This document shows positions 3 through 33,530 of a DNA stretch of 64,000 nucleotides, in pieces. Numbering within the stretch: the stretch's first letter is position 1; each line of letters starts with the position of its first letter. The stretch comes from Candidatus Kapaibacterium sp. (GTDB taxonomy: Bacteria > Bacteroidota > Ignavibacteria > Kapaibacteriales > UBA2268): contig JAMLHE010000010.1 in NCBI GenBank assembly GCA_023957315.1, positions 1-64,000 of the forward strand, given 5' to 3'. A model generated the notes under the pieces. It was not told where the DNA came from. It worked only from the letters and a program-made list of their open reading frames with translations, and did no database searches. The position numbers and the translations under genes were made by a program.

Positions 3-206
3 GTAACTAAAGAGCAGAAGTTCAGTTTAATTAATACTGAGCAATTATGCAAATTGTTAGGAGTAAGCAGGATTATAATTTACAACTGGCGTAAAAAAGG
101 CATCCTTCCCTACAAAAAAATCTCCAAAATGGTTTACTTCGACCCCGTGGAAGTTCAACAAGCTCTAAAGAGTTTCAACTTAGGTTCTCTTCACACTTGT
201 ATTTAG
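3..206 (+). CDS. Partial helix-turn-helix (excisionase-like) protein
   Basis: The frame is open from the left window edge and stops at 204-206, so only the C-terminal 67 residues are seen. They contain a MerR/excisionase-type HTH: NTEQLCKLLGVSR followed by IYNWRKKGILPYKKI and a YFDPVEVQQAL helix, the usual pattern of HTH_17 DNA-binding domains in plasmid- and phage-borne excisionases or regulators. A truncated primase-like gene starts 16 bases downstream, an order common in integrative elements of Bacteroidota. It probably binds DNA as an excisionase or replication regulator; the exact target is not visible. The N-terminus lies outside the window. Confidence 0.65.
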   Translation, partial: VTKEQKFSLINTEQLCKLLGVSRIIIYNWRKKGILPYKKISKMVYFDPVEVQQALKSFNLGSLHTCI

Positions 207-222
207 AGGAGTGAGCTAAGAA

Positions 223-396
223 ATGAAGAACGAAAATCAAGGATCCAAATTAGAAAGTGTTTTATCGAAATTTAAAATAACAAAAAGCCTGAATAATAAT
301 CATCAGGCTGTTTGTCCGGCTCATGATGATGGCACAGCGAGTTTGACAGTAACAGAAGAAGTATTCAGTATTCATCTGAGGTTTAGTAGTGATTAA
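223..396 (+). pseudogene. Truncated primase-like (CHC2 zinc-ribbon) gene
   Basis: A 57-residue frame begins with ATG behind GAGGAGTGAG-like sequence just after the HTH gene. It carries LESVLSKFK, then NNNHQAVCPAHDDGTASLTV, which resembles the start of phage/plasmid primases (first half of the CHC2-type zinc ribbon, C-P-A-H-D-D-x-x-x-S-L). Such proteins normally continue for several hundred residues with the second cysteine pair, a Toprim domain and a helicase. Here the frame ends after HLRFSSD, and no continuation is seen in the following 500 bases. It is best read as a decayed piece of a mobile element. Confidence 0.5.
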
Positions 397-505
397 GAAT
401 TTCAAAATATTTTTTTTAAAAAAAGTGTCCGACGAAACAAGGGGTAAAAATTGAAAATCGCCGCATGTCTATTAAATTCTAATGGGTTACTGAGGGGGAG
501 AAGTG

Positions 506-763
506 TTGGAGATGTAAAACCTTCTCCAACAAGCATGGCTAACTATTATAAAATATTGATACTTACAAAACAGGATTTAGGGGAGAAGTGTTGGAGTTCT
601 AAAACCTTATCCAACACATTCCCAACGGTGAATTTTCGCCAAATTTTCGAGATGCGTACATCTCCAATACATTCCCCCTACATTTCCACTACATCTCCCC
701 TACATTTCCCCCATTGTAATTCTTTAGAAAATAAAAGAGATACAGGGATTTGTTGGAAAAGTA
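506..763. repeat. Cluster of 11-bp motif TTGGARATGTA, incl. 5 tandem units
   Basis: The stretch 397-947 holds no convincing gene, but it has strong repeat structure. Five units of exactly 11 bp lie head to tail at 657-711 (each starting TACAT and ending in a C-rich half; minus-strand consensus KKGGARATGTA). Forward copies occur at 506-516 (exact TTGGAGATGTA), 591-601 and 753-763; reverse copies at 519-529 and 604-614. The pairs 506/519 and 591/604 form two similar small inverted repeats inside a longer direct repeat (GGGGAGAAGTGTTGGAG...TAAAACCTT). Such spacing is typical of iterons or of arm-type binding sites for a recombinase; which applies is not decided by the sequence. Confidence 0.7.
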
Positions 764-947
764 CGAGTTTGTAACACAAAAAAATTCGTATAAGAAGAAC
801 ATATTAAGTCCAAAGCTCATCTTAGACTGATTGGTACAGCCTTTTCGATTTATCATACAAGAAACAACAAAATACGATTTGTCATAGTGAATACGACAAA
901 CCGTATTGATTTCAATATTGTCCAGCATGTCTGTACAGTTTCGGGAT

Positions 948-1256
948 TCAATTTAAAAAAATATTCCCTGTTGGGCGGAATACCACCGCAGGCTTAGGTT
1001 TAGGTTTACGAGTACTTATTTTGGCATGAAATAATTTTTCGGGAATTCCATCTAACACCTTTCTCAAGTTGTCTTCTTTAGACAAATCAAGTCCTATTAG
1101 CGATGATAAAATCCTCACGAAAAAATGAGGCGCTTTACTACCTCTTTCCATTTCTTTGACTGCACTGTCTGACATGTACATCCCAGTTTTTTCCGAAATA
1201 GTTCGCTGAGAATATTTGTTAAAACGTCTAATTGCCCTAAATTCACTTCCTGTCAT
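948..1256 (-). CDS. XRE-family HTH transcriptional regulator
   Basis: About 102 residues when started at MTGSEFRAIRR. The open frame extends upstream to 1382, but that extension looks untranslated; the internal ATG at 1271 is an alternative start. The N-terminal half has an XRE-like HTH (FRAIRRFNKYSQRTISEKTGM, then SDSAVKEMERGSKAP), with the recognition helix near residues 30-42. The tail is basic, with KPKPKP. It sits between element remnants and ssrA and could regulate the former element. No operator was identified. Function beyond DNA binding is unknown. Confidence 0.5.
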   Translation of the reverse strand: MTGSEFRAIRRFNKYSQRTISEKTGMYMSDSAVKEMERGSKAPHFFVRILSSLIGLDLSKEDNLRKVLDGIPEKLFHAKISTRKPKPKPAVVFRPTGNIFLN

Positions 1257-1538
1257 AATAACACCATTCATAAATGTATAAAATTTGAGGTTCCTATTGC
1301 CATTATCCTGAATTGTGGTTGCTGCACTCAATATTATACGACAAAAAATGAAATCTATTGCAGTTGTGATTTCAACTTCCAACCTCCACCCACACTTTTA
1401 GCCATAGTTAAAAATATCAGGCTATATCTAACTATGGCTCGATTTGTAAAAATGCGTTGTAGGGCATTTATGGCGGTCTGTAGTAAAATACCCTACTATA
1501 GCACTATTAATCCGGCATTTTGTATTTTTGCGTAACAT

Positions 1539-1681
1539 TGTGATTGTTCTGTGATTGTTCTTTGATAGGAAAGTTATTGTTGGTGATAAAATAGTTCCAA
1601 CTTCATTTGAAGTTTTCCTCGGAATCAAACTCAAAATACTTAGCTTTTGGGAAATTCTGTTGGAAATGTGTTGGAAACAAA
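1539..1681. repeat. Further 11-bp direct repeats next to ssrA
   Basis: Region 1257-1732 has no convincing gene. TGTGATTGTTC is repeated perfectly in tandem at 1539-1549 and 1550-1560. Two more members of the TTGGARATGTA family lie at 1660-1670 (TTGGAAATGTG) and 1671-1681 (TTGGAAACAAA), again with an 11-bp period. They abut the terminator of the tmRNA gene, and so flank the element on its ssrA side, opposite the cluster at 506-763. Confidence 0.6.
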
Positions 1682-1718
1682 AAACAAGCCCTCGTAACTT
1701 CTTATATTACAAGGGCTT
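1672..1718 (-). terminator. Rho-independent terminator of ssrA
   Basis: A 12-bp stem (1686-1697 with 1707-1718, one wobble/mismatch) is followed on the minus strand by TTGTTTTTTGTTT. It lies 15 bases downstream of the tmRNA 3' end. Confidence 0.85.
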
Positions 1719-1732
1719 AGCAAATCGTTTTG

Positions 1733-2092
1733 TGGAGATGGCGGGAGTCGAACCCGCGTCCGAAGAGTTTCAATCTGAGCCTCTACATGTTTATTCCGCT
1801 TTCTAATTTTCTTTCTTCGGGTGACCAACGGACGGGTCTCCGAAAACCTATCATTCTATTATTTCGCATGGGTACCGAATGAGAGCACACACACTATCCT
1901 GTTTGTTTGCGTCACCCTCGTAAGAACTAACAGGCAAGTCCTTAAAAGAATGTGGCTACGTTTTAATTAAGCAGCCAGAGCATAGTTATTGTCAGCATTT
2001 ATAGCTGTGTCAGTTGAATTTACGTGCGCCACCGACTAAGCACGACATGCCACATCAAACGTCCATCACCCCGTCGAATCCGTTACATCCCC
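1733..2092 (-). ncRNA. ssrA: Transfer-messenger RNA (tmRNA)
   Basis: tmRNA rescues stalled ribosomes by trans-translation together with SmpB. On the minus strand the 5' end GGGGATGTAACGGATTCGAC and the 3' T-arm with GGGTTCGACTCCCGCC and CATCTCC are the family hallmarks; the two ends pair as a 7-bp acceptor stem. Discriminator A is at 1733, and CCA is not encoded. The tag frame ends ...NNYALAA followed by UAA at 1967-1969. The in-frame stretch can be read upstream at least to GCT ATA AAT GCT GAC, giving AINADNNYALAA, but the true resume codon cannot be fixed by eye. The 3' end is a common integration site, which fits the element debris at 1-1681. Confidence 0.97.
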
Positions 2093-33350: not shown

Positions 33351-33530
33351 TCGCACCGCAACGAGTATAAATAATTTTCTATAAACATGTAATCTCTTCG
33401 AGATTAAGCCACTAAAAATGAAAACCCATAAAAAATAATCCCACGGTTAAAACCGTGGGCTATGTTTACGTTTATTTTCACCCACGGTTGAAACCATGGG
33501 CTATGTTTCGGACAGAACGCTGTTCTGTCC
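33289..33530. repeat. Cluster of short intergenic palindromes
   Basis: Gene-free stretch 33161-33543 contains: an inverted pair ACATGTTTATAG (33301-33312) / CTATAAACATGT (33379-33390) enclosing the hairpin CGACCTCTTCGAGGTCG (33337-33353); AATCTCTTCGAGATT just outside it; hairpins CCCACGGTT/AACCGTGGG (33440-33459) and CCCACGGTT/AACCATGGG (33481-33500), each followed by CTATGTTT; and GGACAGAACG/CGCTGTTCTGTCC (33510-33530). The last also occurs at 45622-45642. The 33440 hairpin has a minus-strand T-rich flank. Confidence 0.75.

Follow-up and report, generated by a model that had tools for sequence, protein, structure and literature searches.

Genes and Repeats at the Left End of the Contig

The window analyzed here covers the initial 64 kb of contig C10 and starts at the first base of that contig. 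An AlpA/excisionase-like HTH gene (3..206, plus strand; Pfam HTH_17, E=3e-8), the 5' end of which is lost at the contig start, is followed on the same strand by a 57-codon remnant of a primase-helicase gene (223..396), comprising its CHC2 zinc-ribbon part (profile match to primase residues 1-46; CHC2 zinc finger, E=5e-4). The HTH and primase remnants mentioned in the initial annotation were thus both recognized. The homolog of the AlpA-like gene carried by contig C47 of the congeneric genome G002 matches PHROG excisionase families. The element also carries a small gene for an XRE-like HTH protein (948..1256, minus strand; weak HTH_3 match, E=0.025), which is conserved in both G002 copies; read from a TTG codon, its ORF extends out to 1382.

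The tmRNA gene ssrA (1732..2092; ARAGORN; Rfam RF00023), the integration target, lies on the minus strand with its 3' end facing the repeats described below. The ssrA sequences of two congeneric genomes, G001 and G002, match the window only as far as approximately position 1729-1730, past which they show a different terminator and unrelated genes, and their regions downstream of ssrA do not carry the element. Since the similarity ends at this point, positions 1 to approximately 1733 are best read as an insertion, namely the right-hand end of a mobile element integrated at the 3' end of ssrA, which is in line with the integration-prone site suspected initially. In G002, a phage gene of the tape-measure-like kind (L028:4894-8859) takes up the region downstream of ssrA, so that ssrA seems to be a common insertion site for different elements. 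A dispersed repeat is also present further along the window (33390-33508) and at L026:16128-16300; all three congeneric genomes contain it in dozens of copies.

Thirteen words of 11 bp, set on an 11-bp grid, were found across positions 495-763. The predicted iteron block A (495..529) consists of words at 495-505 and 506-516 on the plus strand and 519-529 on the minus strand. Block B (580..625), which begins 85 bp after block A, consists of words at 580-590 and 591-601 on the plus strand and 604-614 and 615-625 on the minus strand. Five tandem words on the minus strand (657..711, starting at 657, 668, 679, 690, and 701) and a lone word on the plus strand, TTGGAAAAGTA (753..763), complete the array. 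The A+T content climbs to 75-85% in the interval from block A to block B, although the entire region is A+T-rich. The initial annotation had counted about 12 copies, and all the sites it listed are present (506 +, 519 -, 591 +, 604 -, the five tandem words, 753 +, and the pair 1660/1671 +), but it had overlooked three words: GGGGAGAAGTG at 495 and 580 (plus strand), each exactly 11 bp ahead of 506 and 591, and TTGGGAATGTG at 615 (minus strand). The motif it had proposed, TTGGARATGTA, is exact at 506 and 657 alone and has to be taken as a loose one. The pair at 1660-1681 belongs to a sequence class distinct from that of the words at 495-763.

The 11-bp periodicity of region 495-763, reported initially for the tandem copies, is beyond chance: the best identity at lag 11 was 35/44, while 60 shuffles reached at most 26 at any lag. 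Allowing one mismatch, the motif occurs nine times in the whole window versus 4.5 expected, that is only twice the expectation, and the evidence therefore lies in the arrangement of the words rather than in their number. With up to two mismatches, eight matches fall into a single 500-bp bin (mean 0.72 per bin), although the corresponding Poisson probability of 9e-7 is optimistic, since six matches also fall into an unrelated stretch at 17.0 kb. That cluster of weak matches (17.0-17.4 kb) was considered as a further array and rejected because it is aperiodic. The genome-wide scan proposed in the initial annotation gave nine exact matches versus five with a reversed-pattern control, which shows that the motif is not one found generally along the chromosome; the count of the literal motif over the whole genome is otherwise uninformative.

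Primase Genes and Arrays in Related Elements

Genome G002 holds two related islands, on contigs C47 and C8, each with an intact primase gene (740 and 734 codons, respectively). The window is 81% identical to C47 over 418-1699 and 79% identical to C8 over 767-1719. The two proteins contain the TOPRIM, D5_N, and DUF5906 domains (Pfam), and the cysteines of the zinc ribbon are visible in the alignment. The homology between the window and C47 breaks at window position 357 and resumes at 418, which corresponds to a point 86 bp past the stop codon of the intact primase gene: compared with C47, the window jumps from primase codon ~45 to beyond the stop codon, approximately 2.2 kb being deleted. This deletion is located near a contig end and could be the result of an assembly error.

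The G002 contigs belong to JAGXRP01 (L059, L060), a record bearing the name "Desulfobulbaceae bacterium," which seems doubtful, given that the integrase of this genome is of the Bacteroidota type and that many of its proteins have C-terminal sorting-like ends. Both G002 islands (L026:1548-10869 and L027:8568-16343) carry defence-like cargo, including in each case a PLD/Snf2-type helicase and a type IIG-like methyltransferase; C8 additionally encodes an AbiD-like protein, and C47 has PDC-S02 and PDC-S05 candidates.

When the family, the order, and part of the phylum were searched, further primases of identical architecture were identified in G032 (loci C272 and C74) and G036. A first scan of viral contigs with a two-sequence alignment gave no matches. 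The primase-array module of G032:C74 (L074:4141-18684) adjoins an integrase and a run of genes nearly devoid of PHROG matches, possibly an unusual prophage.

In all five relatives (G002:C47, G002:C8, G032:C272, G032:C74, and G036), an array of short words is present right after the stop codon of the intact primase gene, and the array of the window comes after the primase remnant. These are few relatives, compared on the basis of draft multi-contig assemblies, that of G002 being recorded as a MAG. Counted from the first word (> forward, < reverse), the positions in both the window and C47 are 0>, 11>, 30<, 85>, 96>, 115<, 126<, 168<, 179<, 190<, 201<, 212<, and 258>, those in C8 are 0>, 11>, 30<, 85>, 96>, 114<, 158<, 168<, 179<, 190<, 201<, and 247>, and those in G036 are 0>, 12>, 31<, 86>, 97>, 114<, 164<, 174<, 185<, 196<, 208<, and 253>. 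The layouts of G032:C74 and C272 are similar, with one additional forward word per block, and a lone word occupies the equivalent relative position in C47, C8, C74, and G036. Since the window and C47 are 81% identical in the array region, their equal spacing is partly due to descent, and the agreement in spacing with C8 and G036 is stronger evidence than that with C47.

The words themselves differ from one element to another: NNGGARATGTA in the window, TAGGAAATGTA in C47, AGGAATTA/AGGATTTC in C8, TAGGAAAAG/TAGGATTTCG in C272, TAGGATTAGTA in C74, and TTGCAAGA in G036, the registers and short cores of the words having been picked by eye for each element, which introduces some selection into these comparisons. 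Word cores exactly 11 bp apart outnumber those of shuffled sequences in every element, weakly so in G036, which is also weak by the lag test. In C272, no 6- or 7-mer was repeated above the level of the control windows.

In the primases, residues 430-625 (helicase) are 43-90% identical among the relatives, whereas residues 626 to the end, which make up the C-terminal domain (the one that binds the origin in P4 alpha and SaPI Rep), are only 15-28% identical. In the closest pair, C47 and C8, the identity drops sharply past approximately residue 625, from 90% in the helicase to 28% in the C-terminus, and the words differ too. This joint difference in the C-terminal domain and the word is what would be expected if that domain reads the word. 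The structures predicted for this domain are of low confidence, with a pLDDT of 42 for the domain alone and values below 50 for most of it in the full-length model.

The Pair at 1660-1681, the Terminator, and the Ends of the Element

The tandem pair TTGGAAATGTG / TTGGAAAC (also given as TTGGAAACAAA), located at 1660..1681 on the plus strand at the right end of the element, is a predicted arm-type integrase site. In all the DNA compared, the full pair TTGGAAATRTGTTGGAA occurs only at window position 1660 and at both ends of the G002:C8 element. This 24.7-kb element is the sole relative with mapped ends: its flanks match G000:C9, on the first side as far as C8:39522 (where G001:C15 matches as well) and on the other from C8:64181 onward, it interrupts an ArsC/Spx-like gene which is intact in G000 and G001, and it is bordered by a 13-bp target duplication, TCTCTTCGAGATT. 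Its left end encodes a tyrosine integrase of 412 aa that includes an arm-DNA-binding domain. TTGGAAATGTGTTGGAA is situated ~130 bp inward from the left end. From the right end, TTGGAAATATGTTGGAA is ~57 bp away, a distance which is the same in the window. Because the pair is present at both ends of G002:C8, we take the copy at 1660-1681 to be an arm-type site of the tyrosine integrase of the element.

To the left of the window, where the initial annotation had suggested looking for an integrase gene, this contig has no sequence, and no integrase of the G002:C8 type was found upon searching the assembly to which the window belongs. The four integrases of G000 comprise two XerC/D-like proteins and two phage-type enzymes of other kinds (C20, C3); contig C3 was also checked as the partner contig end of the element and rejected. 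Upstream of more distant integrases, inspection by eye gave no clear common arm word.

Between the pair and the end of ssrA, a hairpin followed by a T-run on the ssrA strand (1686..1717, minus strand; -23.6 kcal/mol) replaces the ssrA terminators of G001 and G002, which differ from that of the window. This hairpin, a terminator borne by the element, would restore the termination of ssrA, an indication that an element can supply a terminator of its own to the tmRNA gene at which it inserts. Two G002 contigs share a copy of a hairpin resembling that of the right end (L049:4136-7975 and L048:1007-1070), in L049 near a tape-measure-like gene. The probable recombination core, GGAGATGGCGGGA (1734..1746), was placed in the 3' end of ssrA on the grounds that its distance from the hairpin is the same as that of the mapped 13-bp duplication of G002:C8.

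In G000 (G000:C13:68664-68760 and G000:C8:62340-62438; L008, L009) and G001 (L030, L031), tRNA-Ser genes are followed by ~60 bp resembling the right end of the element. These stretches might be scars of past insertions, or they might belong to a host terminator family captured by the element. A core set 15 nt after GGGCTT reads GGAGATGGCGGGA in ssrA and GGAGAGGGAGGGA in tRNA-Ser, and this common placement makes the tRNA-Ser genes plausible alternative targets carrying old scars.

The pair could accordingly be read as the mere tail of a host terminator family rather than as an integrase site, an explanation which we consider unlikely. It would account for the stretch of ~60 bp, with TGTTGGAAACAAAAAACAAGCCC and the hairpin, found after tRNA-Ser(GCT) and tRNA-Ser(CGA) in G000 and G001, where no element adjoins it, but these tRNA-Ser sites show only a degenerate pair, as would be expected of scars left by past insertions, whereas the full pair is restricted to the ends of elements, and at one of these, the integrase end of G002:C8, no terminator of this kind was seen.

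A Putative Replication Origin That Has Lost Its Initiator Gene

Iteron origins located 3' of primase-helicase genes are already known. The P4 alpha protein, a TOPRIM primase-helicase, binds origin repeats via a winged-helix domain before unwinding and priming (PMC4234260). The C-terminal domain of SaPI Rep recognizes iterons directly downstream of the rep gene, and Cch2 of SCCmec binds repeats just downstream of its own gene in vitro (PMC7581432). The origins of PICIs lie 3' of rep, and their element-specific iterons flank an AT-rich stretch (PMC6092414). The layout observed here matches the scheme of P4 alpha, SaPI Rep, and the PICIs, and the array of the window was read in the same light: judging from the sequences compared, region 495-763 is very probably the iteron origin of a P4/PICI-like element, the initiator gene of which has been deleted, and the pair at 1660-1681 a separate arm-type site of its integrase. 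The initial annotation had proposed either arm-type recombinase sites or replication iterons for what it regarded as a single family; each of these proposals fits one part of the repeats, iterons in the case of the primase-linked words at 495-763 and an arm-type site in that of the pair at the element end, while the idea of a single family does not hold.

Two other explanations would give the array a different role. If the whole family, including 495-763, consisted of arm-type sites bound by the integrase of the element, the resemblance between the array word of the window, TTGGAGATGTA, and the arm word TTGGAAATGTG would be accounted for, as would the period of 11 bp shared by both. However, this resemblance is found in the window and C47 only: in G002:C8, the arm word is kept as TTGGAAATRTG, while the array word has changed to forms like AGGAATTA. 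In addition, ~1 kb separates the array from the end of the element, and in every relative it comes after the primase gene; we regard this explanation as very improbable. We give as little credence to the idea that 495-763 is an array of operators for the HTH regulators of the element (the XRE-like or the AlpA-like protein), to which the presence of the two HTH genes on either side of the array in the window lends itself. Directly past the array, no XRE-like ORF was seen in either G032:C74 or the short contig end of G036, the XRE-like ORF in G032:C272 faces the opposite way, and it is the primase which is the constant neighbor; moreover, 13 sites on one grid would be unusual for an operator.

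As regards the origin, we propose that the 13 iterons, the 11-bp grid of which corresponds to one helical turn, serve as a replication origin, which is placed immediately after the gene encoding a TOPRIM primase-helicase similar to P4 alpha. Upon excision of the element, the C-terminal domain of the primase-helicase would bind the iterons, and the enzyme would melt an AT-rich spacer, then unwind and prime, as P4 alpha and SaPI Rep do. With its own word and a matching C-terminal domain, each element could replicate independently of those co-resident in the cell. In the window copy, where the initiator gene is deleted, what is left would be an orphan origin firing only if a compatible initiator is supplied in trans, and this copy is presumably either inactive or functional only in trans. 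A further proposal, the chances of which we see as evenly balanced, is that the word and the C-terminal domain of the initiator change together while the 11-bp grid and the spacing of the blocks stay fixed, and that co-resident elements escape incompatibility in this way, possibly under diversifying selection.

A formerly unexplained cluster of repeats would thus become a replication origin with an initiator that can be named. The six natural versions of one layout with differing words provide a test set for studying how the specificities of initiator and origin change together, and also bear on the question as to how related islands coexist in one cell.

Comparison With Known Systems

The relatives of the element resemble P4 in that a single protein combines a zinc ribbon, a TOPRIM primase, and a D5/SF3-type helicase, that the repeats are probable binding sites, and that a short integrative element carries an AlpA-like gene. 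The words differ from those of P4, however, a single array with a fixed 11-bp layout lies here right after the gene, the element is larger, and no helper phage is known. The origins of PICIs and SaPIs likewise come immediately after the initiator gene and share element-specific iterons, which would also here flank an AT-rich stretch, together with a divergent C-terminal domain and an int-xis-pri-rep type gene set, whereas the present layout consists of three parts (two opposed blocks, five tandem words, and a single one), the host lineage is different, and neither terS nor phage induction came to notice. SCCmec Cch2 also has a D5-type helicase and a C-terminal domain binding direct repeats just downstream of its gene (in vitro in the case of Cch2, predicted here), but SCCmec has three 5-nt iterons, a separate primase, and serine recombinases. 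Elements with Bacteroidota-type tyrosine integrases have in common with those described here the Arm-DNA-bind_5, Phage_int_SAM_5, and Phage_integrase domains as well as short repeats close to each end and a short target duplication; they differ in that one tandem pair per end is found here and that this integrase was seen in G002:C8 only and not in the assembly of the window. In the open full texts searched, we did not find any description of the three-part 11-bp layout across changing words, of its presence in this lineage, or of an orphan copy at ssrA.

Arrays were also sought after more distant primases. By the test used, none was detected 3' of the primase genes L091, L092, and L161. On two viral contigs, in contrast, distant primase genes are followed by strong element-specific arrays: AAGTGCC/AGTGCCA occurs in 11 copies 3' of the gene in L154 (7449-7849; AAGTGCCA) and ATCCGTA in seven copies, with ~9-bp spacing, in L118 (7658-8158), as compared with at most four in the control windows. 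The primase-array arrangement therefore extends more widely than the lineage to which the window belongs.
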